A stretch of DNA of 64,000 nt from positions 1-64,000 of the forward strand of contig CAIVAT010000116.1 in NCBI GenBank assembly GCA_903903985.1, written 5' to 3'. The notes under the pieces are model-generated. The model was given only the letters and a program-made list of their open reading frames with translations, was not told the DNA's origin and did no database searches. The position numbers and the translations under genes are program-made. Source of the stretch: an uncultured Bacteroidales bacterium. Its GTDB lineage: Bacteria; Bacteroidota; Bacteroidia; Bacteroidales; FEN-979. Shown here one piece after another: positions 1 through 17,509 of this stretch (position 1 is its first letter; the number at the start of each line of letters is the position of its first letter).

Positions 1-360
1 GCTTTGGCTCCCGGTAAGAATGCGATTCCGTTTTCGTAAACGATCTTTTGCTTCATCATAACAAACTTTCTTGTTATTGAATTCGACGATCAGCCGGATA
101 TGGAGTTTTCTTTTCTGCCCGTTGGGTAAAAGGATGTTCCTGGTTGAATTGACCCAGTGGTTGGGATCTTTTGTAATCCTGTCATCGACAGGGAAGTTCA
201 TTTTTGCTGCAAAGATTTCCTTTCCCTTTTTCGTTCTTACTGAGCATTTGCAGGCATCATTCAGTTCTATGACCTCTCCACCGGTTTTCTCCGACCTGTT
301 TGCAGTGACAAATTTCAACTGGAATCTGACCGGCTTTCCATGACCATCAAAAGAGTCCAT
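1..360 (-). CDS. Hypothetical protein, 3' part cut by window edge
   Basis: An open minus-strand frame begins with ATG at 360 and is still open at base 1, giving 120 residues. An in-frame TGA lies 18 bases upstream of that ATG and a purine-rich CTGGAGATC sits just before it, so the start is well placed. The protein begins MDSFDGHGKPVRFQLKFVTA and continues with a basic, hydrophilic sequence including a KDPNHWVNSTRNILLPNG stretch. There is no signal peptide or membrane segment. The segment resembles small soluble proteins on mobile elements in general character, but I do not recognise the family and assign no function. It is divergent from the exporter operon that starts at 623. Confidence 0.7.
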   Translation of the reverse strand, partial: MDSFDGHGKPVRFQLKFVTANRSEKTGGEVIELNDACKCSVRTKKGKEIFAAKMNFPVDDRITKDPNHWVNSTRNILLPNGQKRKLHIRLIVEFNNKKVCYDEAKDRLRKRNRILTGSQS

Positions 361-622
361 GATCTCCAGGACATCTCACAACCGTATAAAAGTTGAATTC
401 ATGGGAGCAAGAATACAATGGAGGGAAGGAAAAATAAAGGACACATATTTTCCTATGGATTTACGACTACAAGTAATTGTAGATTTAGAAGTGTAACGAG
501 ATCTCCTCGAAAACTCAGAAAATGATAGAAAAACTGGGGCTTTCCGTGGATGGATATAATATGTAACATTTTCCCGGGGGAGAGTTTAGTTTATTAAATT
601 TGTACAGTTAACAAATTTAATC
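361..622. other. Divergent intergenic region, no gene seen
   Basis: About 260 bases separate the divergent hypothetical gene from the exporter operon. It contains a short hairpin CTACAA-gtaa-TTGTAG at 467-482 and, at its right end, the promoter and inverted repeat listed separately. Confidence 0.6.
594..620. promoter_or_regulatory. Promoter -7 box inside a perfect 10-bp inverted repeat before the exporter operon
   Basis: TAAATTTG at 595-602 matches the Bacteroidota -7 consensus TAnnTTTG. It is embedded in a perfect inverted repeat, TTAAATTTGT at 594-603 and ACAAATTTAA at 611-620, with a 7-base spacer; the right arm ends two bases before the ATG at 623. The position suits an operator for a repressor, or a hairpin that sequesters the translation start. 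Which one applies is inference. Confidence 0.55.
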
Positions 623-1432
623 ATGTTCAACAGGGAAATATTCAGAAAAAAAGCTCTTGAAAAATTATCCACACCTGATGATCTTGATGAGCTATTGCAA
701 GTTAATTCAAGATTATCATGGATTCTGCTTTTATCGCTGCTTTGCCTGATCCTTGGCGGAGTCGTTTGGGTCGTCTTTGGACAGATAGTAAACAAGGTCG
801 TAATGATAGGAATCATTCAACCTGTCAATCCACCCCATTTGTTAATTGTTAGCGAATCGGGGCAGGTTGATTCAATCTTTCACCAAACGGGTGACAGTGT
901 ATTTAAAGGCCAACCCATCGTGAGATATATACATGAAAACGCGAACACTGCGAAATACATTTTATCGCCATGTAACGGAGAACTTGTTGAACTGGATATC
1001 CGCCAGGGAGTCTTTCTTTTACCCGGCACCACGATTGCAAAAATCGGAAGATTTCACAGAGAACAACTGTTATATCCGGAATTTCTGTTTTTTGCATCTG
1101 AAAAATCAATGAGTAATCTATCTATAGGACAAAATGTTAACATCCTGATGAAGCTACATGAATCTGAATCCCTCAGGATTAGTACCCGGATCATTTACAT
1201 CGGTAAAATACCCCTTTCTGATGCTTCAATCGATAATACAATGCCCGACAAAGAGGTGAGGTCACAATTAAAAAAAGGAAATTATTTTCTGGTTCGCACT
1301 GTCTATATTCCTGCATTGGGTAAAACTGATCCATATAAAGGTTTCTCAGTAAATGATTTTTATGGTAAGGTCCTCAATGGAGAAGCAATAATTTCACAAG
1401 ACAGCCCGATTGCAAATCTACTTGCTCCATAA
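623..1432 (+). CDS. NHLM-type bacteriocin system secretion protein (HlyD-like)
   Basis: A 269-residue HlyD-family adaptor, expected to link an inner-membrane peptide exporter to the outer envelope. Residues about 30-55 form a single strongly hydrophobic membrane anchor (LSWILLLSLLCLILGGVVWV), followed by a biotinyl-lipoyl-like beta segment with a repeated 'gqvdsifhqtGDsVfkGQPIv' type motif and a C-terminal beta-barrel-like part. The short length and absence of a long coiled coil fit the NHLM secretion protein subfamily rather than classical HlyD (about 400-480 residues). It is first in a tight operon (19 bases to the next ATG) with two NHLP-type ABC exporters, which supports the assignment. 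Promoter and inverted repeat lie immediately upstream. Confidence 0.8.
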   Translation: MFNREIFRKKALEKLSTPDDLDELLQVNSRLSWILLLSLLCLILGGVVWVVFGQIVNKVVMIGIIQPVNPPHLLIVSESGQVDSIFHQTGDSVFKGQPIVRYIHENANTAKYILSPCNGELVELDIRQGVFLLPGTTIAKIGRFHREQLLYPEFLFFASEKSMSNLSIGQNVNILMKLHESESLRISTRIIYIGKIPLSDASIDNTMPDKEVRSQLKKGNYFLVRTVYIPALGKTDPYKGFSVNDFYGKVLNGEAIISQDSPIANLLAP

Positions 1433-1451
1433 AAATTAAAATAACCGATCC

Positions 1452-3647
1452 ATGCTGATCAAACGCTACAGTTTTCTGGAAAAAACCATCCAACATTACC
1501 GTGGAATTCGCCGGGTCAAAACACCGACTTATCTGCAAATGGAGATGATGGAGTGTGGTGCAGCTTCTCTCGGAATTATTTTATCTTACTATGGTTGCCA
1601 TATTCCATTGGAGAAATTACGGGTCGATTGCGGGGTCTCTCGCAATGGAAGCAATGCCGCAAATTTAGCCCAAGCAGCTCGTATGTACGGACTCGAAGTC
1701 AAGGCCTTCAGGAAGGAGCCCGAACAATTAAAAAAAATTGGCTTCCCTGCAATATTGTTCTGGCGGTTCGGCCATTTTCTTGTACTGGAAGGATTCGGTA
1801 AAAATAAGGTTTTCCTGAACGATCCTGCCTCAGGTCCGAGAGTTGTTGATGATAAAACCTTTGATGAAAATTTTACCGGTGTGGTATTAATCATTCAACC
1901 AGGGCCAGGATTTAGGAAGTCGGGCAGTAAGGAGATGTTCATGCCACTGTTAAAAACCTGGTTCAAGGGATACGGAAAAGATCTTTTATTTCTGTTTCTG
2001 ACAAGCATCGGGATGGTTATCCCCGGCTTATTAATCCCTATATTTTCAAAAATATTTGTCGACCAGGTGTTTCTGAGTGACTCGTCTTCATGGTTCGTTC
2101 CCCTGGTGATTGGTTTGACCTTTTCAGCCATTTTGCGGTTACTCTTTACCTGGGTACAACAAGGAAGCCTTGTAAGGTTTGAGGCAAGTTTATCCATTGG
2201 TTTTAGCAGTAAGTTTTTTTGGCGGCTGCTCCACCTGCCGGTTAACTTTCATATTCAGAGGCCACCCGGCGATCTGGCCTTGCGGCTTGGCTCCAACAAC
2301 GATGTAGCAATGCAGCTTTCTGGTCAGCTGGGGAATACCCTGATAAGCTTGTTTACTATTGTGATCTATACCATTTTGATGGCATTTTACAGTATCCCCC
2401 TCACCATCATTGGGATATTGCTTTCATTGCTAAATTTTGCTGCATTAAAACACATTTCCCGAAAACGAAAAGATATTAATCAGCAGATGCTACAGGAGAA
2501 TGGGAGAATTTTCGGTTTGGCCGCCTCAGGACTAAGGATGATTGAAAGTATCAAAGCCAATGCCTCCGAGCAGGAATTTTTTAGCCGATGGTCAGGCTTT
2601 CAGACTAAACTGTTGAACCTCCAGCAAAAGTTAGGGCTGTTATCGCAGACTCTTCAGATTGCACCGTTATTTCTGGGATTACTCACCACTGCCCTTGTGC
2701 TGGTAGCAGGTAGTTTCTATATCATCAACGGGACCATGTCAGTAGGCACATTTGTAGCTTTTCAGGCATTACTTATTAGTTTTACACAACCCATCATTAC
2801 ACTGGTTAATCTTGGAGGTACCCTTCAGGAAGTTGAGGGTAGTATGCGGCGTATTGCCGATGTATATCAATATCCTTCCTCTGCAACAGAACAGGAAAAG
2901 AATTCAAATTCAGGAAAGCTAGTAATCAAAACTGAAGGATATGTTGAATTGAAGAATATCGTTTTTGGTTACAGTCTGCTGGAATCGCCATTGATCAAGG
3001 ATTTTTCACTTCGTCTTAATCCGGGATTCCGTGTTGCCATTGTGGGGCAATCGGGTTCCGGAAAGTCCACTGTGGCAGCACTTGTATCCGGGTTATACCA
3101 ACCCTGGTCAGGGGAGATACGCTTTGACGGGAGAAAGACAGATGAAATTTCGCCATTGTTGTTGCATCAATCTGTTTCCATCGTTGATCAGAGTATATTT
3201 TTGTTCGGTGGAACTATTCGCGAAAATCTGACCATGTGGGATCCCTCAGTACCGGAAAAACAGATCCATCAGGCCGCCATGGATGCATGCATTTATGAAG
3301 ATATTGCTTCGCGCCCGGGTGGGTTTGATAGTGAAGTAGAAGAAAACGGGCGAAATTTCAGCGGGGGACAAAGGCAAAGAATCGAAATCGCCCGGGCACT
3401 GGTTAATAACCCCTCGGTTATTATCTTAGATGAAGCCACTAGCGCGCTTGATGCCAAAACAGAACATCTTATCGATTTGAATCTGAGGCGACGAGGCTGC
3501 ACCTGTCTGATCATTGCACATAGGTTAAGTACTATCCGTGATTGTGATGAGATAATCGTGTTAAAAAAGGGCGAGATTGTTCAACGTGGAACACATGAAT
3601 CGCTTATATTGGAGAAAGGATTATACATGGATTTAATTCAAGAATGA
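1452..3647 (+). CDS. NHLP bacteriocin export ABC transporter with C39 leader peptidase
   Basis: A 731-residue fused peptidase, permease and ATPase. The N-terminal C39 domain shows the catalytic cysteine in MEMMECGAASLG (Cys35), the histidine in FGHFLVLEG (His108) and the aspartate in LNDPASGPR (Asp124). Such peptidases cut precursors after a double-glycine site and the transporter exports the core. Residues about 160-440 contain the six-helix ABC membrane domain. The ATPase has Walker A GQSGSGKST near residue 531, signature FSGGQRQR near 635, Walker B VIILDEATSALD near 657 and the switch histidine in IIAHRLST. The neighbouring precursors end their leaders with VSGG, VAGG or VVGG, an obvious substrate match. 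Localised to the inner membrane. Confidence 0.92.
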   Translation: MLIKRYSFLEKTIQHYRGIRRVKTPTYLQMEMMECGAASLGIILSYYGCHIPLEKLRVDCGVSRNGSNAANLAQAARMYGLEVKAFRKEPEQLKKIGFPAILFWRFGHFLVLEGFGKNKVFLNDPASGPRVVDDKTFDENFTGVVLIIQPGPGFRKSGSKEMFMPLLKTWFKGYGKDLLFLFLTSIGMVIPGLLIPIFSKIFVDQVFLSDSSSWFVPLVIGLTFSAILRLLFTWVQQGSLVRFEASLSIGFSSKFFWRLLHLPVNFHIQRPPGDLALRLGSNNDVAMQLSGQLGNTLISLFTIVIYTILMAFYSIPLTIIGILLSLLNFAALKHISRKRKDINQQMLQENGRIFGLAASGLRMIESIKANASEQEFFSRWSGFQTKLLNLQQKLGLLSQTLQIAPLFLGLLTTALVLVAGSFYIINGTMSVGTFVAFQALLISFTQPIITLVNLGGTLQEVEGSMRRIADVYQYPSSATEQEKNSNSGKLVIKTEGYVELKNIVFGYSLLESPLIKDFSLRLNPGFRVAIVGQSGSGKSTVAALVSGLYQPWSGEIRFDGRKTDEISPLLLHQSVSIVDQSIFLFGGTIRENLTMWDPSVPEKQIHQAAMDACIYEDIASRPGGFDSEVEENGRNFSGGQRQRIEIARALVNNPSVIILDEATSALDAKTEHLIDLNLRRRGCTCLIIAHRLSTIRDCDEIIVLKKGEIVQRGTHESLILEKGLYMDLIQE

Positions 3648-3665
3648 CCATTCAATATAATCTAA

Positions 3666-6566
3666 ATGGATAAAGCCGCTCAGCTCTTTAAAAATGAATC
3701 ACATATACGGGTAGAAAGTAACCACCCTTTCCTTCTTAATAAACCAGGCTGGGGATGGTACATAGTTGAAGGAAGAATTGATGTGTTCTCTGTCAGGATT
3801 GAGCAGGGTATTGCTAAAGGAGCCCGGACGCATTATTTTACAGCTGAAAAAGGAGAAATTCTACTTTCAATTCCAATGATTGAGGAGGAAGCGGATATCC
3901 ATTTTCTTGCAGTAGCAACACAAAATACTGTTATAGTTGAATTCAGGTTGTCTGCATTAAGAGAATTTTCTACAGATAGTGCTAATAATCAAATCATTAT
4001 TCCCCTTATCGAAAGATGGATTACCCACTTGGCCACAGGCGTATCGCTCGGCGGTATGGAAACCTCGGGAAAAAGTATACTAGCGGGATTAGATCAATCA
4101 TTTCGGGCGAATTCATATATTCATAGCAGAAAACAGGTTCTGTGGATTGAGATAACAGATGGCAATGCACTTTTACTTGGGTTGAATGAAGTACGAAAAA
4201 CAGGGATGAAAACATTGATTCCGGTTACAGGCGAATTGTATCTCCAACCGCTTAATGAAGTTCGGGGACATTGCCACCCCACTGATGAAGCATTGAAAAT
4301 TCCATTTTTCTGGGACTTGCTCGAACAGTTCTACTACCTGCTGCTACTTTGTCTGGAGTATAAAGATAAGTTTTCCAGAGTTGATGAATTAAACCTTTTG
4401 AATGAGAAATCAGGATATGCCAAACTAAGCCAATCTGATACTTTATACAGGATGGCCTCAGTAGTCAACACTAAAATAAGAAAGAGTTTTTACGAAAGCC
4501 GTGAAGATCCTATGCTTGCAACATGTAAGCTGGTTGCACAATATACCGGGATTCATGTTAAAAAACCAGTCAAACCCAGAACAGAAGAACAGCAACCCTT
4601 TTCGTTGAATGATGTTTTGCATGCATCAGGTTTCAGAGCAAGGAAAGTAAGACTTGAAGCCGATTGGTGGCGGAAGGATACAGGTTCTCTTCTTGCTTTT
4701 ACAGTCGAAGGTCAAAATCCGGTAGCTCTGGTGCAGAAAATTCCAGGTCAGATTGAATACATTGACCTTGTTGCCGGAATCCGGAAACGAATGTCTACCT
4801 CGTTATCAGCATTAATTCAGCCATTTGCTTATCAGTTTTATCCTCCTTTACCAGATAAGGTGATTACTGGAAGCGAGCTCATCAAATTTGGCATAAAAAA
4901 TTGCCGACACGAAATTATTTTTGTTTGCATCCTTGCCCTGGTAGGCGGATTACTTAATTTGCTCATTCCGGTAGTGACAGGAGTAGTATTCGATCAGGTA
5001 ATTCCTCAAGGGAATCTCAGCTTACTTTGGGTTTTTGGTATTATCCTGATACTTACCGGAATTTCGATATCCCTGTTTCAATTGATGCGAAGTATTGCCA
5101 TGGTCCGAATTGAAACTAAAATGGATTTCTTCCTTCAGTCTGCTATCTGGGACAGGTTGTTAAACCTTCCTATTCCGTTTTTCAGAAAATATACTTCAGG
5201 AGAACTTGCACTAAAAACCAACAGCATTCTGATGCTGCGAAAGGCAATCTCGGATACGGTGGTATTCGCCTTGCTTAGTTCTGTTACGCTCGTATTTAAT
5301 GTAATTTTTCTCTTCTGGTTCAATTTTTTCCTGGGATTTCTGACCGTTGGGATTTTATTTCTAAGCGTGTTCGTAGTCGGACTTATCGGAGTTCGAATGA
5401 AAAAACTGCAAACAGCACAGATTGGTTTTCAAAATACTCTTTATGGTATCATTACCCAATTGTTAACCAGCATCACTAAAATTAAAACATCCGGGTCCGA
5501 AATACATGCATTCGAGCAATGGGCTAACCGCTTTGCCAACCAGAAAAGGGAAGTCATCGCTTTAAGGAAATTGACTATTGTGGTCCAGCAGATACTTACC
5601 TTTACTCCGGTTCTGGTTTTAATTCTTATATTCATCTATATTCATTTGTTGGTATCCAAAAAAATGTCAACTGGCGAATTCATGACTTTTTTCACGGCAC
5701 TCAATATTACTATTATGGCCTGTATGGGGGCTGCCGCAGCTATTGTCTCATTTTTTCTCGCGATACCCTTGTTCGATAATGTCAAGCCTATTCTGGAAAC
5801 CTTGCCTGAAAATTATCAGGCCAAACCTGCCAGTGCTCCCTTGCATGGCACCGTTGATGTATCCAACCTGAATTTCAGGTATCAAGATAAATCGCCGTTG
5901 GTGCTCCAAAATGTTTCAATTCATGTCGACTCCGGGGAATTTGTGGCCATTGTGGGACCATCAGGATCGGGGAAATCAACACTGCTGCGGTTACTACTTG
6001 GCTTTGAACCTCCTGAAACAGGGACCGTTTGTTATGACCGGCACGATCTCTCAATGGTAGACCCCGAATCAATCAGAAGGCAGATAGGTACCGTTTTGCA
6101 AAGCTCTCAACTTTTTCCCGGAACCATATTTTCGAATATTGCAGGAATTACAGATGCAACACTCGATGATGTGTATGAGGTCGCCAACCTTGCTGGTCTT
6201 GGCGAGGATATTGAGATGATGCCAATGGGCATGCTCACCCCAATTTCAGAAGGGATAAGTACACTATCCGGCGGGCAGAGGCAGCGCATCCTGATAGCGA
6301 GGGCCCTGGTTACAAAACCCCGGATTCTTTTTCTTGATGAGGCAACCAGCGCCCTCGACAACAAAACACAATGTATTGTAACTGACAGTCTGAACAATAT
6401 ACAGGCAACCAGGGTTGTTATTGCCCACCGCCTGAGCACAATTTCAAAAGCTGACAGAATCTATGTTTTAGAAAATGGGCGGATTGTTGAAGAAGGTACC
6501 TACCAGGATCTGATATTGGGAAATGGGCACTTTGCTTCACTGGTGAAACGTCAAATGATTGGTTGA
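3666..6566 (+). CDS. NHLP bacteriocin export ABC transporter, second permease/ATPase subunit
   Basis: A 966-residue half-transporter that lacks the C39 cysteine motif. The first roughly 400 residues are soluble, beginning with a cyclic-nucleotide-binding-like beta-rich section, as in the NHLM ABC2 family. Residues about 415-715 form the membrane domain. The ATPase carries Walker A GPSGSGKST near residue 764, signature LSGGQRQRILIARAL near 867, Walker B LFLDEATSALD near 890 and VIAHRLST. It follows the peptidase exporter by 18 bases and presumably pairs with it as a heterodimer or works as a second exporter. It ends 28 bases from the convergent stop of the cyclase-like gene. Confidence 0.9.
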   Translation: MDKAAQLFKNESHIRVESNHPFLLNKPGWGWYIVEGRIDVFSVRIEQGIAKGARTHYFTAEKGEILLSIPMIEEEADIHFLAVATQNTVIVEFRLSALREFSTDSANNQIIIPLIERWITHLATGVSLGGMETSGKSILAGLDQSFRANSYIHSRKQVLWIEITDGNALLLGLNEVRKTGMKTLIPVTGELYLQPLNEVRGHCHPTDEALKIPFFWDLLEQFYYLLLLCLEYKDKFSRVDELNLLNEKSGYAKLSQSDTLYRMASVVNTKIRKSFYESREDPMLATCKLVAQYTGIHVKKPVKPRTEEQQPFSLNDVLHASGFRARKVRLEADWWRKDTGSLLAFTVEGQNPVALVQKIPGQIEYIDLVAGIRKRMSTSLSALIQPFAYQFYPPLPDKVITGSELIKFGIKNCRHEIIFVCILALVGGLLNLLIPVVTGVVFDQVIPQGNLSLLWVFGIILILTGISISLFQLMRSIAMVRIETKMDFFLQSAIWDRLLNLPIPFFRKYTSGELALKTNSILMLRKAISDTVVFALLSSVTLVFNVIFLFWFNFFLGFLTVGILFLSVFVVGLIGVRMKKLQTAQIGFQNTLYGIITQLLTSITKIKTSGSEIHAFEQWANRFANQKREVIALRKLTIVVQQILTFTPVLVLILIFIYIHLLVSKKMSTGEFMTFFTALNITIMACMGAAAAIVSFFLAIPLFDNVKPILETLPENYQAKPASAPLHGTVDVSNLNFRYQDKSPLVLQNVSIHVDSGEFVAIVGPSGSGKSTLLRLLLGFEPPETGTVCYDRHDLSMVDPESIRRQIGTVLQSSQLFPGTIFSNIAGITDATLDDVYEVANLAGLGEDIEMMPMGMLTPISEGISTLSGGQRQRILIARALVTKPRILFLDEATSALDNKTQCIVTDSLNNIQATRVVIAHRLSTISKADRIYVLENGRIVEEGTYQDLILGNGHFASLVKRQMIG

Positions 6567-6572
6567 TTGGTC

Positions 6573-6592
6573 AAGCTGGCAGCTTTTTAAAC
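6573..6592. terminator. Possible weak bidirectional terminator between convergent operons
   Basis: AAGCT-ggc-AGCTT followed by a T run lies between the exporter stop codon and the convergent cyclase-like stop codon. The stem is only about five base pairs, so this is a weak call supported mainly by position. Confidence 0.3.
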
Positions 6593-6593
6593 C

Positions 6594-7631
6594 TCATTCA
6601 TCTGTATTGAAAAGATTGTTATACATAACCAGTGTCTTTAGAACGGTTGCTGTAGTAAACAATCCATTCTGATCCAGGCAAAGTTCTCCCCATGGTTGTT
6701 TGATACCAATTTCCCATTCTGAATACTGGTCAGGATCTGTCACCCATGGTGATGGCACACGAAGTATTGCCGAAGAGAGCCATGATCCGTTCGGCATTTG
6801 TTGTCGTAGTAACCAATTTATCCCTCTTTTTAACATCGCTGTATTTGGGTTGCTTCTTTCAGAAAACAACAGAACCCTTAATCCCAGAGCGGTTGCAAAT
6901 GGTGAGCCGTCGATAAAGAACTTATTGGAAATATAACCTTTTGATTGGAGTTTTGCAGCCACCCAAGATGAAGCAAGTTCAATAATTTTGTCCCTGGGAT
7001 CAATCTGTGAACACGCGATTGCCTCTGTAGCAAACCCCGTAGCATATTCATCATCGTACCACCAATAACCTTTCCAATGGCCAGGTTCTTGTTGTTTCTC
7101 AACCAAATATGGTATTGTAAAGGTTTTAACCCCTTTTAAACCAGCGGAAGCCGCAGTAACACAATTATGTGCCTGCAACCATCCCTGGCGCATTTTAATT
7201 ATTTCTTCTGTTAACACCATACCTGAAATATCATTGCGAGTATACGTTGAGATTCCCCCATCTGAAGTCAGATGTTGTTGTAGAATCTTTTTTGCAGATT
7301 CTGCAACGAGATGATCACCTTTCCCAAGTATTTCAGCAAGGTTAAGGCACCATATAGTGGAATCGGCATCAACTATTGCTTTTCCGCTGTAGCCCCATCC
7401 CTGCTTGCCGTTAATATATCGCCAACCAAGGACATTCCATGCATCCTGTGCAAAAAATATTGCCAAAGAATCATCCGTTTCACACAATATGGCTCCAATA
7501 TATCCAGATACCCATTCATCGCTTTCGCCGGGGTCCAGTGAAAAATCTCTCCATAAGTGGTCTTTCCCTACGCTACCACAAAGGTAAGTAGTAGCCTTTT
7601 GAACTATCTTTCTTAAAGTAGAAACGGGCAT
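6594..7631 (-). CDS. Squalene-cyclase/prenyltransferase-repeat protein of the RiPP cluster
   Basis: A 345-residue soluble protein built of repeated helix pairs with QW-like and related signatures, for example WLLRQQMPNGSW, LVEKQQEPGHWKGYWWYDDE and CLNLAEILGKGDH. This pattern is that of the alpha/alpha toroid seen in squalene cyclases, prenyltransferase beta subunits and related proteins. I see no clear DXDD catalytic motif of class II terpene cyclases, so a terpene cyclase activity is not supported; a peptide-binding or accessory maturation role is more likely. The ATG directly abuts the TAA stop of the radical SAM gene (TAAATG), implying translational coupling and a shared substrate. Confidence 0.7.
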   Translation of the reverse strand: MPVSTLRKIVQKATTYLCGSVGKDHLWRDFSLDPGESDEWVSGYIGAILCETDDSLAIFFAQDAWNVLGWRYINGKQGWGYSGKAIVDADSTIWCLNLAEILGKGDHLVAESAKKILQQHLTSDGGISTYTRNDISGMVLTEEIIKMRQGWLQAHNCVTAASAGLKGVKTFTIPYLVEKQQEPGHWKGYWWYDDEYATGFATEAIACSQIDPRDKIIELASSWVAAKLQSKGYISNKFFIDGSPFATALGLRVLLFSERSNPNTAMLKRGINWLLRQQMPNGSWLSSAILRVPSPWVTDPDQYSEWEIGIKQPWGELCLDQNGLFTTATVLKTLVMYNNLFNTDE

Positions 7632-8939
7632 TTACAAGTGAAAAGATATGTTTTTCTTAAGGAATAATTTATCAACTTCAAATTTGTAAAGGATATCGCA
7701 GAATTCATCCTCAGCAGCAATGGTTCCCTTGGTATAGAATGCTGATGCCCTGCACCCACCTGCGCATGTTGCTACAAAAGGGCATTCTTTACACTTCGGG
7801 ATTTCATATGCTCTTAAGCGGGTTTTGCTATTCCTACCCTTTTCCAGGATATCCGGGAAATCTTCTTCGAGTATATTTCCGAGGATGAATTCCTTTTCGC
7901 GAAGAAGGTGGCAGGGATAAACGTCGCCGTTCCAATCGATATCCACATTATACCATGCATTCCCGCAAACATACCGGCAACGGGTATCCCGGATGTTTTC
8001 ACTGTTGCTGTCATACATTTTTGGTTCGTCTGTATGGTCAAATTCTTTGTGAATTTTCTCAAAGGTTTCAATAATGATATTCCTCAGGGAATCCGGTTCA
8101 AGGCTGATGTTACAGGCATTTGGTGCATGAGGAAACTTACGCAGATGATTTGGGTCAAATAAGCCACCGTTACGGTATGCAAAACGCGCTATGTCAAGTA
8201 TTTCATGAAGGTTTCCTTCATGAACAGTCGGTGCAAGAGAAACACACACCTTGTATTTAGCAAGGATATTAATACCCCTGATTGTTGCCTCATAGCTGTT
8301 TCCGCGGGTAATGGAATGAACTTCGGGGGTAATTCCATCCAGACTTACCTGTACATGCACCAGATTCAAATATCCCTTAAGTTTTTTGGCAAAAGATTCA
8401 TCTATCAGGTTTGCATTAGTTGCGATCGAAAACTGAAGGTTATTGCTTTCCAGGATATCCAGAATATCGAGTATTTTTGGGTGAGTAAGGGGTTCACCAC
8501 CTGTAACCATTACCCGGGCAGAAGGACTTTGACTGCGTATTTTTTGAATGATAGTTTCCACTTCTCGTATTTTCATGGAATGGTCAGCAACGCGTCTGTT
8601 ATCACCTATATAACAATACGAACAGGAAAGGTTACAGGATGTAGTTACAGTAAGGTAAACAACCTGTAGGCAAGGGACTTCAGTTTCAATCCTCTCATTC
8701 CTGAACCAACCCTGCTGCTTCAGTTTCCTCAGAAAAATGCCTGAGAAATTTGCTATTTCTTCTTCTTTGCAGCCATGAGACGCAAGAGTACGTTTCACCA
8801 CTTCCCCGGGATCTTCACCACCTGCCTTGGAAATAGCCTCAAATGCCAGATATTCAGCGGGAGAGAAAAGACTCATCGCCCCAGTAGAGGAAGAACTTAC
8901 CAGGTAATGCCCGTTGATAATCTTACTGTTAAAATTCAT
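7632..8939 (-). CDS. Radical SAM/SPASM peptide maturase
   Basis: A 435-residue enzyme predicted to modify a ribosomal peptide by radical chemistry. Residues about 10-80 look like a PqqD-type leader-recognition segment. The radical SAM cluster motif CNLSCSYC gives Cys102, Cys106 and Cys109, and TGGEP follows at 146-150. The C-terminal SPASM domain shows Cys325 to Cys343, then CKEC (383, 386), Cys392, Cys396 and Cys414, which fits CX2CX5CX3C and two auxiliary Fe-S clusters. It lies directly downstream of four precursor genes and is coupled to the cyclase-repeat gene. Which precursor it acts on, and whether it makes a thioether, carbon-carbon link or epimer, cannot be read from the sequence. Confidence 0.88.
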   Translation of the reverse strand: MNFNSKIINGHYLVSSSSTGAMSLFSPAEYLAFEAISKAGGEDPGEVVKRTLASHGCKEEEIANFSGIFLRKLKQQGWFRNERIETEVPCLQVVYLTVTTSCNLSCSYCYIGDNRRVADHSMKIREVETIIQKIRSQSPSARVMVTGGEPLTHPKILDILDILESNNLQFSIATNANLIDESFAKKLKGYLNLVHVQVSLDGITPEVHSITRGNSYEATIRGINILAKYKVCVSLAPTVHEGNLHEILDIARFAYRNGGLFDPNHLRKFPHAPNACNISLEPDSLRNIIIETFEKIHKEFDHTDEPKMYDSNSENIRDTRCRYVCGNAWYNVDIDWNGDVYPCHLLREKEFILGNILEEDFPDILEKGRNSKTRLRAYEIPKCKECPFVATCAGGCRASAFYTKGTIAAEDEFCDILYKFEVDKLFLKKNISFHL

Positions 8940-9109
8940 TATCTTTTAATATTACTATGAGTGTTGTCTATTAACAGTATCAGTGCTCAAAAAGATAATC
9001 CAAACTTCTATATTTTTCAAGAATAAGGAAGCAAAAACATTGGAATAGATGATAGAAAACTATTTGTAACTTTTTAAGCAACCGCCAAATAGAATCCTTA
9101 TTTTGACGA

Positions 9110-9304
9110 TTAACCGACAGTCGGACCTGAACCCGGAAGTCCTGTTTTCGTACACTCCGAATTCAAACCTCCAACTTCTCCGCAGGTTGGATTATTTCCG
9201 CCGACAACTTGTTCCAACTCTTTCTCACTCAAGGTAAGATCAAGTTTTTCTGGATTTAGCCCCAACTCAGGTGATTTTTCGTTCTGGTTTATAGAATCTT
9301 CCAT
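9110..9304 (-). CDS. Short double-Gly RiPP precursor, non-NHLP class
   Basis: A 64-residue peptide with an acidic leader whose end reads LTLSEKELEQVVGG, a classical bacteriocin double-glycine site. The predicted 28-residue remainder contains two Cys, four Thr and two Ser and is rich in Gly and Pro. It lacks the long nitrile-hydratase-like leader of its three neighbours. It sits between those precursors and the radical SAM gene, so it may be the radical SAM substrate or a second LanM substrate. The C39 exporter at 1452 would be able to cut after GG. Small size makes this call inferential, but codon frame, position and GG motif agree. Confidence 0.72.
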   Translation of the reverse strand: MEDSINQNEKSPELGLNPEKLDLTLSEKELEQVVGGNNPTCGEVGGLNSECTKTGLPGSGPTVG

Positions 9305-9370
9305 TTTGTTAAATATTAATTGGTGAATTGGAAATTAAATTAAATTTAGGAGTTAAAATAAGCATGTGAA

Positions 9371-9424
9371 GGCAGTGGCTATTTGTCCGAATAAATCCAC
9401 TACCATCAATCCTTTTGTTGACTA
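9371..9424 (-). repeat. Intercistronic repeat, copy 1, 3' of first NHLP precursor
   Basis: About 54 bases beginning at the stop codon of the 9422-9733 precursor are nearly identical to 9783-9836. On the transcribed strand the arms GGTAGTGG and CCACTGCC can form an 8-bp stem. It is probably part of the duplicated precursor unit and may stabilise or end transcripts. Confidence 0.65.
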
Positions 9425-9733
9425 TCCGCCGGTAATCGTACAGCAAGAAGGTTTACAATCGCAAGTTCCTCCAGACCAACCACCAGATACTGACTCCAAC
9501 TCTAACTGGGTGATCTCATCTTCTTGTTGAACATTTTGAGGAATGACCAAATACACTTCATTTTCTTTCTCCTCAACAATCTTTACAGACAAATGATCAG
9601 GCAACACTATACCCAATTCTTGCCCAATAGCGCCTTTAGGATCTTTCAGGAGTTGCTCCCTGAACGTTGAATCTTTCAAAGCTTTTAAAATAATTTTTTC
9701 TTCTAATTCTTTCATTTGGTTTTTCGTTTCCAT
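9422..9733 (-). CDS. NHLP-leader lanthipeptide precursor, copy 1
   Basis: A 103-residue precursor. Residues 1-85 form a long charged leader similar to nitrile hydratase alpha subunits, including LKDSTFREQLLKDPKGAIGQ and the IVEEKENEVYLVIPQ segment, and the leader ends ELESVSGG. The core reads WSGGTCDCKPSCCTITGG, with four Cys, three Thr and two Ser available for lanthionine or methyllanthionine rings. LanM at 11700 is the expected modifying enzyme and the C39 transporter the expected protease and exporter. The leader is almost identical to the copy at 10175 while the core differs, which is the usual pattern of a combinatorial NHLP family. Confidence 0.88.
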   Translation of the reverse strand: METKNQMKELEEKIILKALKDSTFREQLLKDPKGAIGQELGIVLPDHLSVKIVEEKENEVYLVIPQNVQQEDEITQLELESVSGGWSGGTCDCKPSCCTITGG

Positions 9734-9782
9734 GCTAAATTTGATTACGAGTGTGAATTAAGAGTTTAATTAATAATATACA

Positions 9783-9836
9783 GGCAGTGGCTATTTGTCC
9801 GAAAACATCCACTACTATCAACCATTTTGCTGATTA
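9783..9836 (-). repeat. Intercistronic repeat, copy 2, 3' of second NHLP precursor
   Basis: Second copy of the element at 9371-9424, again starting at the stop codon of a precursor gene and sharing the GGCAGTGGCTATTTGTCCGA stretch. Its stem arms are slightly decayed (CCACTACT in place of CCACTACC on the plus strand). Confidence 0.65.
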
Positions 9837-10147
9837 GCCAGTGGTAATCCCACAGCAAGAAGGAGGAGTACAACCACAATCTGACCCTGACCAACCGCCA
9901 GATACTGACTCCAGCTCTAACTGGGTGATCTCATCTTCTTGTTGAGCTTGTTGAGAGATGACCAAATACACCTCGTTTCCCTTTTCTTCAACCACTTTGA
10001 TAACGAGGTTTTCTGGCAACGTAACATCTAATTCTTTTCCCGTGCTTCCCTTGGATTTTCAAGGAGGGTTTTCCTGAAATTTTCATCTTTCAGCGACTGC
10101 TCTATAAGCTTCTCCTCAAGAGCTTTACGAGATTGTTTTGGTTCCAT
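9834..10147 (-). pseudogene. NHLP-leader lanthipeptide precursor, copy 2, frameshifted
   Basis: The leader starts at ATG 10147 (MEPKQSRKALEEKLIEQSLK) and is open up to ENPRE..., then hits TAG after the shift. From about 10050 downwards the homologous frame continues as GSTGKELDVTLPENLV, then the leader end ELESVSGG and core WSGSDCGCTPPSCCGITTG. The paralogues read DPKGAIGQELG at this point, so loss of one A in CCAAAGGG (now CCAAGGG, plus-strand 10048-10054) explains everything. With four Cys, three Ser and three Thr the core itself is intact. It is either a real inactivating frameshift or a base-calling error in a short A/G run. Confidence 0.85.
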
Positions 10148-10174
10148 AGAATAAAATTTAGTAATGAGTGAATA

Positions 10175-10486
10175 TTAACCACCACCAGGCATGCAATGGG
10201 TACATGATCCGCAATCACTGTCACCCGTCCATCCTCCTGCGACTGATTCAAGCTCTAACTGGGTGATCTCATCTTCTTGTTGAGCTATTTGAGGAATGAC
10301 CAGAACCACTTCATTTTCTTTCTCCTCAACAATCTTTACCGACAAATGATCAGGTAGTGCGATACCCAATTCTTGTCCAATAGCGCCTTTAGGATCTTTG
10401 AGGAGTTGCTCCCTGAATGTTGAATCTTTCAAAGCTTTTAAAATAATCCGTTCTTCTAATTCTTTCATTGTGTTTTTCGTTTCCAT
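10175..10486 (-). CDS. NHLP-leader lanthipeptide precursor, copy 3
   Basis: A 103-residue precursor with a leader almost identical to that of copy 1 (shared KDSTFREQLLKDPKGAIGQ), ending ELESVAGG. The core is WTGDSDCGSCTHCMPGGG with three Cys, two Thr and two Ser. All three NHLP cores start with Trp then Ser or Thr and Gly, and the Cys spacing differs among copies. It is the first precursor downstream of the 356-residue unknown gene (31 bases apart) and is expected to be a LanM substrate exported by the NHLP transporters. Confidence 0.88.
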   Translation of the reverse strand: METKNTMKELEERIILKALKDSTFREQLLKDPKGAIGQELGIALPDHLSVKIVEEKENEVVLVIPQIAQQEDEITQLELESVAGGWTGDSDCGSCTHCMPGGG

Positions 10487-10517
10487 AATAATAGTTTATA
10501 AAAAGAGACAGTAATGT

Positions 10518-11588
10518 TTATTGTTTGAAGTTCCTGATATAGATTCCGAAATAAGCTTTTACCGCTGCAACTTCAGCATTTTTAAATACGATCTTGACAT
10601 GGTTCACACTGTTCAGATAGTTAAGTTTATAGAAGTGTTCAACTTTATGCATACCGGAATATTGTAATAATCCGTCTTTTTTCCCGGGTAAACACCATCC
10701 TTTACTTACCATCCAGTTCAGATTAGATTCCCATCGGGCATCATCAGAAGGTTGTGTCATGTTGTTTAAATAACATTCGATCCCTAAATTTGGGTAAATT
10801 TCGCTTCCCACATCCAGATTAAAAACAAAATAATCGAAACGGTCTTTTATTTCACCCAGTGTTGTCTGCAATCTGCTGATGTCACCAGTCCAGTTAATCG
10901 CTTGTAAGTACTGTATGAGTGACGGGAATTCAATGTTAACCAGTACGAGTCTTACCGCAATCAATTTCGTTGAGAGATAAAATCCGAAATGGTAGAGTCT
11001 TGCCTTTTCAGGCAGAAGTGTGATGCACTGGGTTATTTTCTGCCGGAGATCGATGTTGATGGGATTTTCTGACAATACCCGGGAGAAATTATAAAGCAGG
11101 TCAGATGCAAAAGAAACCCTGTTCAAAGAGATTTGCTCCTGGGATTGAGCAATGCCCAGGAACATCTTTGGAATTTCCGACAGAGAATCAACCCCATGAT
11201 CAAATTCAAACCAGATGGTATCGATGCAATTGTTGAAAAAACTCCCCGGAGTAATCCACTCGCTTGAAAAGCGTTGAATTTTTCCCCATGCGTATTGCAA
11301 AGCAGGGGTCGCAGACACACCTGTAAAAGGAAATTCTCCGGCCAGGATCTTTGCGCCTGAGGATCGTTTAGTCACACTGAAAAGAAAGTCCACCCAACCG
11401 TGGCTTTCAGCCAAATGACTCTCAAAACCGACATCTCTGGTGATATCGTAAGGAAATTGCAGTGCAAAATGTTTAACCTGCCCGATGTTATCTTTCGATA
11501 ACAGTGAGGGATGAAAATCATTTTCAACTACTTCAATATGATCCGCTAAAGTGAGCATTGCAATATCATATTTTTTTGATAATCCCAA
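10518..11588 (-). CDS. Uncharacterised protein between lanM and the precursors
   Basis: A 356-residue soluble protein that I do not recognise. It starts MGLSKKYDIAMLTLADHIEV and has no signal peptide, membrane segment or Cys-rich motif. Alternating beta-like stretches such as YHFGFYLSTKLIAVRLVLVN, FDYFVFNLDVGSEIYPNLGI and VKIVFKNAEVAAVKAYFGIY give a beta-alpha repeat feel loosely like ABBA-fold prenyltransferases of cyanobactin pathways, but no diagnostic residues confirm this. Its place in a tight RiPP operon, between the lanthipeptide synthetase and its precursors, argues for a tailoring or leader-handling role. Function remains open. Confidence 0.75.
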   Translation of the reverse strand: MGLSKKYDIAMLTLADHIEVVENDFHPSLLSKDNIGQVKHFALQFPYDITRDVGFESHLAESHGWVDFLFSVTKRSSGAKILAGEFPFTGVSATPALQYAWGKIQRFSSEWITPGSFFNNCIDTIWFEFDHGVDSLSEIPKMFLGIAQSQEQISLNRVSFASDLLYNFSRVLSENPINIDLRQKITQCITLLPEKARLYHFGFYLSTKLIAVRLVLVNIEFPSLIQYLQAINWTGDISRLQTTLGEIKDRFDYFVFNLDVGSEIYPNLGIECYLNNMTQPSDDARWESNLNWMVSKGWCLPGKKDGLLQYSGMHKVEHFYKLNYLNSVNHVKIVFKNAEVAAVKAYFGIYIRNFKQ

Positions 11589-11655
11589 CCAAATAAGAGA
11601 AAGAAGCTAAAAGAGCATACTTAGTTTAGAATCAAGTAATTAGTTGGATACCTTG

Positions 11656-11663
11656 CAAAGTTA
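11656..11663 (-). promoter_or_regulatory. Candidate -7 box for the precursor operon
   Basis: On the minus strand this reads TAACTTTG, an exact TAnnTTTG match, about 68 bases upstream of the 356-residue gene. If used, the precursors would be transcribed separately from, and more strongly than, lanM. Confidence 0.4.
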
Positions 11664-11699
11664 AATCAAATAATAAAGAATAACAAATATTCAGGATAT

Positions 11700-14600
11700 T
11701 TATTCAAAAATCAAAACAGATCGGATCATTTCGGGGTATGCAAGCCTTAACAACTCATATCCAATCCCTGAAAGTCCTTGGAAGAAACCAAAATTCTGAA
11801 TATTCGACCGGGTATAATGGTAAAGTGAGTAATACCCATTGTCGTTTTCATTGTGAATGACAGAGGCAGCGATTTTTAATGCCACTGATCTGAGATCAGG
11901 AGCATTCAGTTTTTGAGAAGCATAAAGAAGTATATCCGCCCGGCCAAGGTTGCCGCAGCACAGATGATCAACGCTAATTACAGGATAATTGCGGGTCGTT
12001 TCAATAGCAGTGTTGATATCAAACGAAATCTGATCATTATTCAGCAGGTGTATGGATGCGAGCCTCCCAAGTCCAATTCCCGGTGCGCCGTGGCACCAGC
12101 TAACCATGAAGTTTGGTTTTTCAGGGTCTCCATATCTTTGCAACAATCTAATATCCAGCCAGTTTTTGATATCCGGCACATACAAGCTATCTTCATACCG
12201 GATGGCTTCCTCTGCTACGTTGAAATATCCTTCGTCTTTTGTCAATTCATATAGGCAGAAAAGGCTATAGGCAATACCTGCCACTCCATGTGAAAAACCA
12301 GCCAGGATTTTACCTCCCAGGAAAGGCCATCCGCACATACCCTTGCCGATGATTGTCCTTGAATGAACGAGATGGTCCCCGCAAATCTTTGCTTTTTCAA
12401 GCATTCCAGGGTTTTGTGTTTGCTTGTAAAGTTTTATAAAACCGAGTATTGCGCCTGCAGAACCTGACATGACATCATAGTCTGTACCACTCTTTATAAA
12501 GTCAACGCTTATTTTATCGGCCAGTAATTCAGCCTCAGCGGTAAGATCCGGGTCATCAAGGTATTCAGATAACAGGACAAGGCTATACATAATGGAAGTG
12601 AGGCCTGCAGCAATTCCAATCTGAAATAGTTTTAGGTGAAGCGTGTATTCATCCATTATCCTGAGCGATTTTCGGATGGAGGCTATTGCAGTATAAGCCA
12701 TTTCCCTGTAACGTTCTTCTCCGGTAACCTTAAACAATGCGCCCATGTATAGTGCCACCCCGCTAATACCATCATAGAGTGTTAATGACATAGGGCACAT
12801 CTGCAATTTCCTCGCTTCAACAAGTGTGCCTACAGTAATCCACGATGCGCTGTTATCAGCCGAAAGTATCGCATTCTCCATAATCTGACCACCTATTTTC
12901 TTCGAAGCTTCAATCAATTGTTCCCGACTAACGGGAGGTACTATTTTTACTTGTTTATGTCCTGTCTGATCGACAGCGGCATTAAACCCTTCATTATAAT
13001 TTTCAAAAAATAAAGAGGCCCTGATAAACTTAATTTGAATATTTAAATCATCCTCATGCAATAAATTAATCCTATTTTTCACCTCTTCAAGGATAGGTCC
13101 ATTCATGAAATCCTTTACAACTATCTTCCCTTCTGTACTAATATCTATCCCGTTACTGTTTGCTGTAAAAATAGGAATATCAAGATCTTCCATCTGCCGG
13201 AGTTCAGATTTACAGATATTCCAATAATCGTTCTTTCCTTTATTGTGAAGAAAGGCGCGGCTTAATCCTTCCATCTGTATGCTGCGGTCTACACCTGACC
13301 GCATATACCTCGGATTCTGCAACTTTTTCATTATCAAAGCATAAATTCTTGTACTCCGGAAGATGAATCTGACATCCTGCTCTTCAAATTCAACCAATGG
13401 TACCTTTTCCATATTAGCCATTAAAAACCTGTACAACCGGGTGAATCCCTCTGTAATTTCCACCTCAAAGGCTGATGGTAAGTATTTTTGGGTTGCTATC
13501 CTTGGGATATTATCAAATTCACGGGTAATGATCCTTTTTAAAGATGCATTCATCAGGTCGGTATTCAGGTGCTTCCACTCAATTGAGTAAAAGGGAGTTA
13601 ATGCGAGTCCTTCAGCACCTGTTCCGCTTGGATCGTAGGAATAATCACCTTTACCTGCATTCCAGGACGGTAACAATCCTGTTTTAAAAACAGAATCTCC
13701 AAACTGTTCATAGGCCAGATAGGTTGCACTTTCCACATCTTCACCCATTATACCTTTAGCGGTATGATGCATGATGGTTTCCAGATCAATGATCACTGGA
13801 AATTCCCCGCAAGCTATCAAATTCTCATAATGACAATCATTCCCCTTCAAGGCATAGATTATACAGATTAACATTCCCACTCTTCTGTAATAATCCCGGA
13901 TCTGCTCTTCGCTTTCACATTCCCTGAATTCAACAAACCCAACCCAACCATAATCATCTCCTCTCAAAACTTCGAGTGGTTTCAATGCAGGAAATTCTCC
14001 GGAATTATTGATCCAATCCAGTAAATTTGAATAGGCGGATTCCAAAGCCAGCTCTTTCGGTTTATAGACGATTTTCAAACCATTTTCAAAACAGAGAATT
14101 GATACTCTTTTCCCATGATTGTGCGAGTCTGAAAGACCGCCAGTGATCGTTTCCACCTTCCCCAAAGGGAGTTGAGGAGAGAAATGATCCTTGATCTTAT
14201 CAATATCAGTAGTGAGTCTGGACAATAATATGACAGTATTGCTTACCCAATGCTCAACAGTCATTGCAATCATTTTGGCAAGCACTGAATATTCACGAAA
14301 AAACTCCATCCAGCCACCCTGGAATAACGTGCACACAAATTCATCATATAACCCGGTGCCAGGATCTGCTTTGCTGATAGAAATTAATCGCTCCATTGAA
14401 CTCTGCCGTTGGGTTCTAAAAACTAAAAATTCAAGGTAAAAAGTTTGAGCAGTATAAGAAGATAAAATAAATAACAGCTGTTTTTTAAGAAGTGTGACAA
14501 CATTGTTCCCTACAATCTCCATGCTTTTGCCGGCTCGGGTCTGCAAGTCATTAACCCCATAGTTAACAAAGGGAAGCAAAAGATCAGGGAAGGGAACTTT

Positions 14601-14954
14601 TGCAAATTCTTCATCCTGTAAGAGTATTCTGGCCTCAGCTTTAATGTCATTATAATCAACTAACAGGAGGTTTTCAAGAATCATATCAAATTTCAAGGCC
14701 CATTCAGGCAACGTTAGTGAATGTATATTGGTTGTTTCACTAAGGATTTGAAGGAGTTCAGATTCCATTATATCATCGTTGACAAGTCTTCGTTGGAAAA
14801 TTTCTTCTTCGCCGAGAGCGCACGCTTCTTTCCATTCCTGTAACCGAGCCTGAGCAATATTGGATAATTCCTGTTTTTCGAGCGCGTTTTTATGCTCAAT
14901 CCGTTCATGCAATGTCTCAGCTCTCAAAACAATTTCATGGATTATCTCATTCAT
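11700..14954 (-). CDS. lanM: Class II lanthipeptide synthetase LanM
   Basis: A bifunctional enzyme of 1084 residues from the chosen ATG at 14954; a longer version from ATG 15020 (1106 residues) is possible, with an AAAGGAGG lying between the two. Numbers here use the longer form. The N-terminal dehydratase phosphorylates and eliminates Ser/Thr: SDSHNHGKRVS, the lysine in YKPKE near 320, GNDCHYEN at 393-400 and IDLET near 411 are visible. The C-terminal LanC-like cyclase shows SWCHGAPGIGLG (Cys976) and HLCCGNLG (Cys1021, Cys1022), giving the three-Cys zinc site of the CCG group typified by ProcM. That group is known for accepting many precursors, which suits three NHLP peptides here. Confidence 0.95.
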   Translation of the reverse strand: MNEIIHEIVLRAETLHERIEHKNALEKQELSNIAQARLQEWKEACALGEEEIFQRRLVNDDIMESELLQILSETTNIHSLTLPEWALKFDMILENLLLVDYNDIKAEARILLQDEEFAKVPFPDLLLPFVNYGVNDLQTRAGKSMEIVGNNVVTLLKKQLLFILSSYTAQTFYLEFLVFRTQRQSSMERLISISKADPGTGLYDEFVCTLFQGGWMEFFREYSVLAKMIAMTVEHWVSNTVILLSRLTTDIDKIKDHFSPQLPLGKVETITGGLSDSHNHGKRVSILCFENGLKIVYKPKELALESAYSNLLDWINNSGEFPALKPLEVLRGDDYGWVGFVEFRECESEEQIRDYYRRVGMLICIIYALKGNDCHYENLIACGEFPVIIDLETIMHHTAKGIMGEDVESATYLAYEQFGDSVFKTGLLPSWNAGKGDYSYDPSGTGAEGLALTPFYSIEWKHLNTDLMNASLKRIITREFDNIPRIATQKYLPSAFEVEITEGFTRLYRFLMANMEKVPLVEFEEQDVRFIFRSTRIYALIMKKLQNPRYMRSGVDRSIQMEGLSRAFLHNKGKNDYWNICKSELRQMEDLDIPIFTANSNGIDISTEGKIVVKDFMNGPILEEVKNRINLLHEDDLNIQIKFIRASLFFENYNEGFNAAVDQTGHKQVKIVPPVSREQLIEASKKIGGQIMENAILSADNSASWITVGTLVEARKLQMCPMSLTLYDGISGVALYMGALFKVTGEERYREMAYTAIASIRKSLRIMDEYTLHLKLFQIGIAAGLTSIMYSLVLLSEYLDDPDLTAEAELLADKISVDFIKSGTDYDVMSGSAGAILGFIKLYKQTQNPGMLEKAKICGDHLVHSRTIIGKGMCGWPFLGGKILAGFSHGVAGIAYSLFCLYELTKDEGYFNVAEEAIRYEDSLYVPDIKNWLDIRLLQRYGDPEKPNFMVSWCHGAPGIGLGRLASIHLLNNDQISFDINTAIETTRNYPVISVDHLCCGNLGRADILLYASQKLNAPDLRSVALKIAASVIHNENDNGYYSLYHYTRSNIQNFGFFQGLSGIGYELLRLAYPEMIRSVLIFE

Positions 14955-15453
14955 AGTTATCTCTATTTTGGTTATGTTAGAATTATTTACCTCCTTTTTA
15001 ACTACCTGGTAAATGAACACCTAATATATGACATGTTTTTATGAAATCAGGACTTATCTTCAATTGATTTTAACTTTTAGCTCACCTAATACAGTCAATG
15101 TTGACAATTGCATGAGCAAATGCTTGGTATTTTTTATCAGTATGTATTTTTTGGATATATTGAATTTCTTTGAAGAATTGGTCGGATCAGAAGGTTTAAT
15201 CAACCCGGAATCACAACTAAAACAGAGGCTTTCAGAAAACATGGAAACTTTTTTTATGCATGTGCCTACAAATGTGCCTACAAATGAAATATTCCGGATC
15301 TTTACGTTAGCTGTTATTTCATGGTGGGAATAATTCTAAAATTATGATTCCCGAAGTAGAACTAATCTACTCCGGGAACTATCGATTAACTTAACAGAAC
15401 TTCACAAGGTCAGTCTATACGAAGGTCATCCACACGAAAATGACGTCCTATAA
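14955..15453. other. Intergenic region between lanM and the T9SS remnant
   Basis: No convincing gene. A 101-codon plus-strand frame at 15028-15333 has low-complexity and implausible composition in its first half; its second half (about 15120-15333) reads more protein-like and contains a 12-bp tandem duplication at 15260-15283. A hairpin at 15350-15376 is listed separately. Confidence 0.5.
15350..15376. repeat. Hairpin near the island edge
   Basis: CCCGAAGTAGA and TCTACTCCGGG pair over 11 bases with one mismatch around a 5-base loop. No U tract follows, so it is not a standard terminator. It could be a recombination or insertion-sequence end remnant. Confidence 0.45.
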
Positions 15454-16440: not shown

Positions 16441-16508
16441 TCATGGGTGAAATGTTCAAATACTTTCTTTGCCAGTTGAAGGGCTTTTTGTTCGCTTTCT
16501 GTTATCAT
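16413..16508 (-). other. 31-codon open frame fused upstream of the truncated propeller gene
   Basis: MITESEQKALQLAKKVFEHF is the first part of a clean 31-residue helical, charged peptide that overlaps the broken start of the T9SS remnant in another frame. It may be the 5' end of an unrelated gene joined here by deletion. Too short to identify. Confidence 0.3.
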
Positions 16509-16604
16509 TTTGTTTGATTTTGTTTTTATTAATTACATTTACTCTTCCATTCTATTTGAAAACGAACTGTAAATCATTTATTAACCAGCCAATAGCATTT
16601 GACC

Positions 16605-17465: not shown

Positions 17466-17509
17466 TGGGTGCAGGTTGCTACAGTTTCATGCAATTCATT
17501 AATACAGAA

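Follow-up and report, generated by a model that had tools for sequence, protein, structure and literature searches.

The window, positions 1-64,000 of the 130-kb contig CAIVAT010000116.1 from the 5.2-Mb draft genome of an uncultured Bacteroidales bacterium, carries a gene cluster for ribosomally synthesized and post-translationally modified peptides (RiPPs). The cluster probably encodes a terpenoid-lanthipeptide pathway, in which Trp-bearing core peptides would be prenylated and terpene-cyclised, and a separate two-gene radical S-adenosylmethionine (SAM) RiPP unit that may share the exporter. By computation we observed the gene content, the fold of the prenyltransferase, the homology of the cyclase with its catalytic residue, conserved linkage in other genomes and the separate occurrence of the radical SAM-peptide pair. 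In the proposed pathway, LanM would dehydrate and cyclise precursors with NHLP leaders, and an ABBA prenyltransferase would then add a prenyl chain to the Trp opening each core. An MstE-type cyclase would protonate this chain through the aspartate of its DADST motif and fold it so that a polycycle forms on the indole, and a C39/ABC exporter would cleave after Gly-Gly and secrete the product. The second unit, lying in the same gene run, would comprise a radical SAM/SPASM maturase and its own short double-Gly precursor. What we infer is Trp as the target, how long the chain is, the sequence of the reactions, the sharing of the exporter and any product.

The exporter genes occupy the plus strand (623-6566). 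The minus strand encodes, in order of transcription, LanM, a 356-residue protein, three NHLP precursors, a short peptide, a radical SAM/SPASM enzyme and a toroid protein. The left flank of the cluster is invisible because the window begins at contig base 1. The gene set that the original prediction named at 623-15020 was recovered with curated models and Pfam (radical SAM, SPASM, LANC_like, DUF4135, Peptidase C39 and squalene-cyclase C-terminal). Its idea of a hybrid lanthipeptide holds, with a different second chemistry: the MstE-type cyclase and the ABBA prenyltransferase most likely provide prenylation and terpene cyclisation rather than the radical crosslink it proposed. A lanthipeptide carrying a terpene on Trp, a rare hybrid chemistry, is probably the product of the cluster.

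The toroid protein (345 residues, 6594-7631, minus strand) is predicted from its sequence and modelled fold to be a single-domain class II terpene cyclase of the MstE type. It contains the squalene-cyclase C-terminal domain of Pfam. A sequence search of the PDB returned MstE chains (merosterolic acid synthase, PDB 6sbb-6sbg) as the best matches (E 2e-58, approximately 33% identity), followed by 6ij1, named 'Prenylcyclase' (E 1e-53). The MstE alignment spans nearly the whole protein and places MstE D109, the residue mutated in 6sbd and 6sbe, at the second Asp of DADST, a motif found in all 5 aligned cyclase sequences, the window's among them. When the AlphaFold2 (AF2) model (pLDDT 73.5, pTM 0.82) was submitted to Foldseek, the top 7 matches were MstE chains (TM 0.78-0.79, 31%-34% identity). 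Both a catalytic Asp in a DxD-type motif and a single toroid domain, the features of MstE-type cyclases, are thus present. The possibility that the toroid protein is an accessory of the radical SAM enzyme was rejected, as it matches MstE in both sequence and fold and its immediate neighbour varies between clusters.

The 356-residue protein (10518-11588, minus strand, counted from a TTG) is, by its predicted structure, an ABBA PRENYLTRANSFERASE, i.e. an ABBA-fold prenyltransferase; the original prediction had left it as an unknown protein. Comparison with its homologues suggests a translation start near 11558, at the ATG of residue 11. At E <= 1 it matched no family of Pfam or NCBIfam, those of cyanobactin prenyltransferases (PatF/LynF) included, and sequence and profile comparisons with the PDB gave nothing convincing. 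Searches of PHROGs and of viral contigs returned nothing useful. The fold was obtained from an AF2 model (pLDDT 82.3, pTM 0.85) of alternating helix and strand pairs (helix-helix-strand-strand repeats), built on an alignment of 13 sequences in which the 12 homologues are 27%-34% identical to the window protein; the broken gene in L032 was left out. Foldseek returned 462 PDB matches at E <= 10, including 52 at E <= 0.001. All 50 listed matches of the 462 are what we take to be ABBA prenyltransferases: DMATS1, 6-DMATS, NphB-type, PriB, AmbP1 and the RiPP enzymes LimF, KgpF and PatF. The ABBA barrel is shared with the cyanobactin enzymes, with PatF (4bg2), LimF and KgpF among these matches. Residues invariant in all 13 sequences and located in barrel strands include E56, E128, R213, E271, H330, K332, K344 and Y346.

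The linkage of these genes was examined in 61 related genomes, including the window's own. The prenyltransferase family occurs in 5 of them, and NHLP leaders occur in exactly the same 5. LanM exceeded its cut-off in 4 genomes, all prenyltransferase-bearing, with weaker partial matches in 4 further genomes, and the cyclase was found in 3, each time less than 3 kb from a prenyltransferase gene. Fisher tests for co-occurrence with the prenyltransferase, which ignore shared ancestry, gave 1.7e-7 for NHLP, 9.6e-6 for LanM and 2.8e-4 for the cyclase. A scan of GTDB contigs, several of them short, revealed 13 prenyltransferase loci, 12 with an NHLP gene (counting a 46-residue fragment in L032 and a 62-residue coreless form in L020), 8 with LanM (counting a 101-residue fragment in L032), 8 with a peptidase exporter and 3 with a cyclase (two copies in L021). 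The two surveys overlap, since L023 is G029, L024 is G008, L020 is G016, and L025 and L028 are G009. At the GTDB loci the prenyltransferase often adjoins a precursor or LanM gene, and in L021, L023 and L024 the prenyltransferase and cyclase are again separate genes. In a sample of 395 genomes from the phylum, the window's included, the prenyltransferase profile matched 8 genomes and the cyclase profile 11, of which 5 were strong (E < 1e-26), again counting the window's own. Cyclase homologues in related clusters adjoin an AbiEii-like gene or an NHLP precursor. At L023:11075-12142 and L024:11073-12140 (both minus strand), an AbiEii-like nucleotidyltransferase gene overlaps the cyclase gene by 4 bases (Pfam was tested for L023).

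Of the other four strong cyclase matches, one is a standalone protein (G107) and three each make up half of a larger fusion protein. The MstE-like domain forms the C-terminal half in three Bacteroidota genomes, at L148:7932-9932 (minus strand), L149:7885-9840 (minus strand) and L146:8049-9767 (plus strand). The fusion proteins have 666 and 651 residues, and the open frame of L146, interrupted by a stop, has 572. By eye, their N-terminal half resembles trans-isoprenyl diphosphate synthases, with one weak Pfam match (E 0.057, L149). L148 may possibly represent a second type of peptide prenyl-cyclase RiPP, built on an unrelated prenyltransferase fold.

Prenyltransferase homologues are also encoded on plasmids of Nostoc, Pseudanabaena, Acaryochloris and Azospirillum. 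A LanM gene accompanies them in Pseudanabaena (by annotation) and in Nostoc and Azospirillum (by eye), and the Acaryochloris homologue lies beside a Nif11 precursor and a radical SAM methyltransferase. In Pseudanabaena the homologue is contained in a 597-residue protein annotated as a 2OG-Fe(II) oxygenase, and the protein next to it (598 residues, unknown family) shares 43% identity with one encoded beside the Azospirillum homologue. The genes concerned are located on the plus strand at L009:11983-13776, L009:13763-15559 and L011:10199-11992. A search of four plasmid records for the cyclase, run without a positive control, gave no match. The toroid-like proteins of 597 and 598 residues on the plasmids (L011/L009) found no support as cyclase homologues, having no Pfam family and no significant match to the cyclase, and homology of a toroid-like protein in L045 with the window cyclase was unsupported by sequence.

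The lanthipeptide part of the cluster was assigned with curated models. LanM (1106 residues from a GTG, 11700-15020, minus strand) scored 867 bits against TIGR03897 (cut-off 304) and has the DUF4135 and LANC_like domains of Pfam, that is, the dehydratase and LanC-like domains of a class II lanthionine synthetase. Its cyclase domain carries CHG and CCG motifs, the latter as in ProcM, and an in-frame ATG 22 codons downstream of the GTG is a possible alternative start. Two intact NHLP precursors exceed the TIGR03793 cut-off of 50.9 bits and contain Cys together with Ser/Thr in their cores, as expected of NHLP-leader lanthipeptides: precursor 1 (9422-9733, 79.5 bits, core WSGGTCDCKPSCCTITGG) and precursor 3 (10175-10486, 77.3 bits, core WTGDSDCGSCTHCMPGGG), both on the minus strand. 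Three such precursors had been predicted. The middle one (9834-10147, minus strand) proved to be frameshifted, and a fourth, unrelated double-Gly precursor at 9110-9304 had been missed. In the middle precursor the match to the leader model is divided between 9894-10037 in one frame and 10034-10129 in another. The core WSGSDCGCTPPSCCGITTG closes its 3' part, and it departs from its sister precursors in the DNA alignment. The gene may be a pseudogene, or the assembly may contain an error here. The segments 9346-9451 and 9758-9863, comprising the 3' end of precursors 1 and 2 and the sequence after them, form an 80% identical repeat, which suggests that the precursor units were probably duplicated along with downstream sequence.

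On the plus strand, the two ABC subunits of the NHLP exporter exceed their cut-offs: a 731-residue protein with a C39 double-Gly peptidase domain (1452-3647; TIGR03796, 976 bits against 853; Peptidase_C39 E 2e-34) and a second subunit of 966 residues (3666-6566; TIGR03797, 802 bits against 709). The HlyD-type adaptor (269 residues, 623-1432) falls below the TIGR03794 cut-off (65 bits against 156), yet has homologues of similar length in related clusters (266-288 residues, 28%-36% identity). Prochlorosin-type LanM systems with NHLP/Nif11 leaders have several precursors per LanM, a long structured leader and a C39 exporter. The window is like them in all three respects and differs in the added prenyltransferase and cyclase and in having only three NHLP precursors.

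Trp directly follows Gly-Gly in all 3 window cores. We compared cores from 20 partly overlapping prenyltransferase loci, counting identical cores once, with those from 23 loci retrieved from genomes that had no prenyltransferase match in the phylum sample; these loci do not cover all NHLP genes of the genomes in question. Peptides without a recognisable Gly-Gly/Gly-Ala site were left out (2 of 44 at prenyltransferase loci, 3 of 44 controls), and the counts include the core of the frameshifted window precursor and one L008 entry that is probably a mis-cut Nif11-type peptide. Trp is present in 28 of 42 prenyltransferase-locus cores and 17 of 41 controls (p 0.03), and Trp or Tyr in 39 of 42 and 29 of 41 (p 0.011), an enrichment that is modest and uncorrected for relatedness, among cores that are not independent and against control families that are more distant. 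At the cyclase loci (window, L013, L014 and L021), Trp occurs in 16 of 19 distinct cores by hand count. The core TGWGGPGQGS, adjoining the prenyltransferase in G008 and G029, contains Trp and no Cys, so that it could be prenylated but not lanthionised. Core composition is thus suggestive of Trp as the prenylation target.

The radical SAM/SPASM enzyme (435 residues, 7632-8939, minus strand; Radical_SAM 7e-27, SPASM 2e-11) probably acts on the 64-residue double-Gly peptide encoded at 9110-9304 on the same strand. It resembles the RiPP maturases WgkB, StsB and SkfB in its CX3CX2C motif (residues 102-109), its SPASM domain and an adjacent short Cys-bearing precursor. It differs from them in the core motif of that precursor and in scoring far below every equivalog cut-off among the 25 NCBIfam families listed of 103 (best WgkB, 127 of 650 bits). 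Close orthologues were found in only 2 other genomes of the 61, G016 and G009 (60% and 57% identity; next match 27%). Homologues of the short peptide directly adjoin both (E 5e-16 and 1e-12), and no LanM or cyclase lies within the 18-19 kb around them. The short-peptide cores have two Cys ten residues apart in the pattern C-x-E-[IV]-G-x-x-N-x-[ED]-C-T-K-x-G. This pattern comes from visual inspection; in the machine alignment the block is out of register. A peptide match in L022 turned out to be the tail of an NHLP leader and was discarded as a short-precursor homologue. No orthologue of the enzyme was found in the cyclase-bearing genomes G008 and G029. The radical SAM enzyme and the cyclase are therefore separate both ways, given a cyclase without the orthologue in G008 and G029 and orthologue stretches without a cyclase in G016 and G009. 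None of the 13 GTDB prenyltransferase loci, on contigs of which several are short, contained a close orthologue. In the phylum sample 2 other genomes passed E 1e-35, at 1e-37 to 1e-40, and a plasmid search at E 1e-30 gave nothing useful. Judged from these gene neighbourhoods, the enzyme is probably not part of the terpene-lanthipeptide pathway and more likely serves the separate short peptide. The original prediction had coupled it to the toroid protein. The two genes do adjoin on one strand, an arrangement that is not conserved, since homologous cyclases have other neighbours.

Several observations weigh against our reading, some touching its terpene half and some the separation of the radical SAM unit. 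TM-scores of the 356-residue protein to known ABBA enzymes are 0.40-0.55, which supports membership of the fold and not of a subfamily, and no sequence profile links it to known ABBA enzymes. As its sequence connects it with none of the curated prenyltransferase families, the protein might instead be an ABBA-like barrel that is not a prenyltransferase, with a structural or leader-binding role for example, and the cyclase might be a remnant. We regard this as very unlikely, because invariant charged residues sit in the barrel strands and the catalytic acid of the cyclase is kept in every aligned sequence. In the window cyclase, other residues align with MstE Y157 and R337, which were mutated in solved MstE structures; from the alignment, these replacements could suit a different aryl group. 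MstE cyclises geranylgeranyl dihydroxybenzoate via protonation of its terminal double bond, according to excerpts of PMC9401909, i.e. it acts on a small aromatic compound. The four other strong cyclase matches in the phylum sample do not lie beside an ABBA prenyltransferase, and G107 carries a standalone homologue with none nearby. The MstE substrate and the standalone homologue would agree with a cyclase and prenyltransferase that make a free meroterpenoid or membrane terpene and lie in a RiPP cluster by chance. This is improbable in our view, since the prenyltransferase family tracks NHLP leaders exactly and often adjoins their genes or LanM, and NctPC, as excerpts of PMC13290415 describe it, is such a pair acting on a peptide. 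G029 has prenyltransferase, cyclase and NHLP genes and no LanM match, so that the terpene step may not need lanthionines.

The remaining points concern a single pathway, in which the radical SAM enzyme would crosslink the NHLP cores that LanM cyclises, so that one product would bear lanthionines as well as a radical crosslink, and perhaps a cyclised terpene too. The genes share one strand, and the radical SAM stop and the cyclase start abut with a zero-base gap. Among the 61 relatives, radical SAM orthologues occur in 3 of the 5 prenyltransferase/NHLP genomes and in 0 of the 56 others (p 2.8e-4). Distant radical SAM-like genes are found about 3.4 kb past LanM in L025 (24% identity) and beside an NHLP gene in L070. 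In G276 (L045:364-7654), a radical SAM gene overlaps the gene for a 319-residue toroid-like protein that has a DLDDT motif. Opposite them lie four NHLP precursors whose cores read GGxCW, a second radical SAM gene (493 residues), exporter genes and a prenyltransferase homologue; LanM was not found in the 16 kb read. In G117 (L148), the cyclase fusion has a radical SAM gene and a P450 gene in its vicinity, as well as a peptide with the C-terminal sequence GGNKICWLA. Given the confinement of the orthologues to prenyltransferase/NHLP genomes and the distant radical SAM-like neighbours elsewhere, the enzyme could belong to the pathway. We nevertheless consider a single pathway unlikely, because the two close orthologues pair with the short peptide in stretches lacking LanM and cyclase, and neither the other two cyclase genomes of the 61 nor the 13 GTDB prenyltransferase loci, several of them on short contigs, have a close orthologue. 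The co-occurrence would fit a shared exporter, and would fit a joint pathway or shared ancestry as well, all three genomes belonging to one genus. Exporter genes were not seen in the 18-19 kb examined in G016; in G009 an NHLP gene lies approximately 4 kb from the orthologue, beside a second, distant radical SAM-like gene (25% identity). In the fullest version, all four enzymes would act on one precursor set, whose products would have lanthionine rings, a radical crosslink and, at an N-terminal Trp, a polycyclic terpene; this seems to us quite improbable.

To our knowledge, the known ribosomal peptides bearing polycyclic terpenes come from a single fused enzyme system, NctPC, which is of cyanobacterial origin. 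The terpenoid-lanthipeptide pathway proposed here differs from it in its Bacteroidota host, NHLP leaders, NHLM exporter and radical SAM neighbour, and in its separate genes (6594-7631 and 10518-11588) in place of one fused protein. In NctPC, according to excerpts of a review (PMC13290415, citing Hubrich 2024), an ABBA prenyltransferase is fused to an MstE-like cyclase, and a C20 chain is attached to Trp of a ribosomal peptide and then cyclised. Likened by that description, the window shares an ABBA prenyltransferase in a RiPP cluster, an MstE-like cyclase and, as in these excerpts, low similarity of the prenyltransferase to cyanobactin enzymes. MppC of Moorena geranylates Trp of a Nif11 peptide cyclised by a LanM, MppM, and requires the structured leader (PMC12715784). 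The window likewise combines LanM with an ABBA prenyltransferase; the Moorena system differs in its Nif11 leader and C10 chain, and no terpene cyclase is described for it (PMC12715784). We found no report of a split Bacteroidota form in the open-licence PMC literature, although clusters of this kind may appear in Hubrich 2024 or in its supplement. By this comparison the split-gene Bacteroidota form appears to be new, and the chemistry itself has its precedent in NctPC. If the reading is correct, the division of prenyltransferase and cyclase between two genes, together with several cores that start with Trp, would make every step accessible to a test of its own, the cluster would show how peptide-acting terpene cyclases spread, and the prenyltransferase would represent a family unnamed in Pfam and NCBIfam.

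A possible promoter, TTTG-N20-TAACTTTG, which we take to be the Bacteroidota-type consensus, lies upstream of the prenyltransferase gene (11656-11687, minus strand); the pattern match is weak, with 9 matches in the window against 3.6 expected. The G+C content of the cluster (window 1-18000) is 0.38-0.43, and that of most of the remaining window is 0.42-0.51. An open reading frame at 18048-19607, 3 kb past LanM, resembles an IS21-type transposase by eye; together with the lower G+C content, it suggests a possible horizontal gain of the cluster. Further along, at 38512-62797, lie genes that by eye resemble those for starch/maltose use (glycosidases, SusC/SusD-like proteins and transporters) and bear no relation to the cluster.

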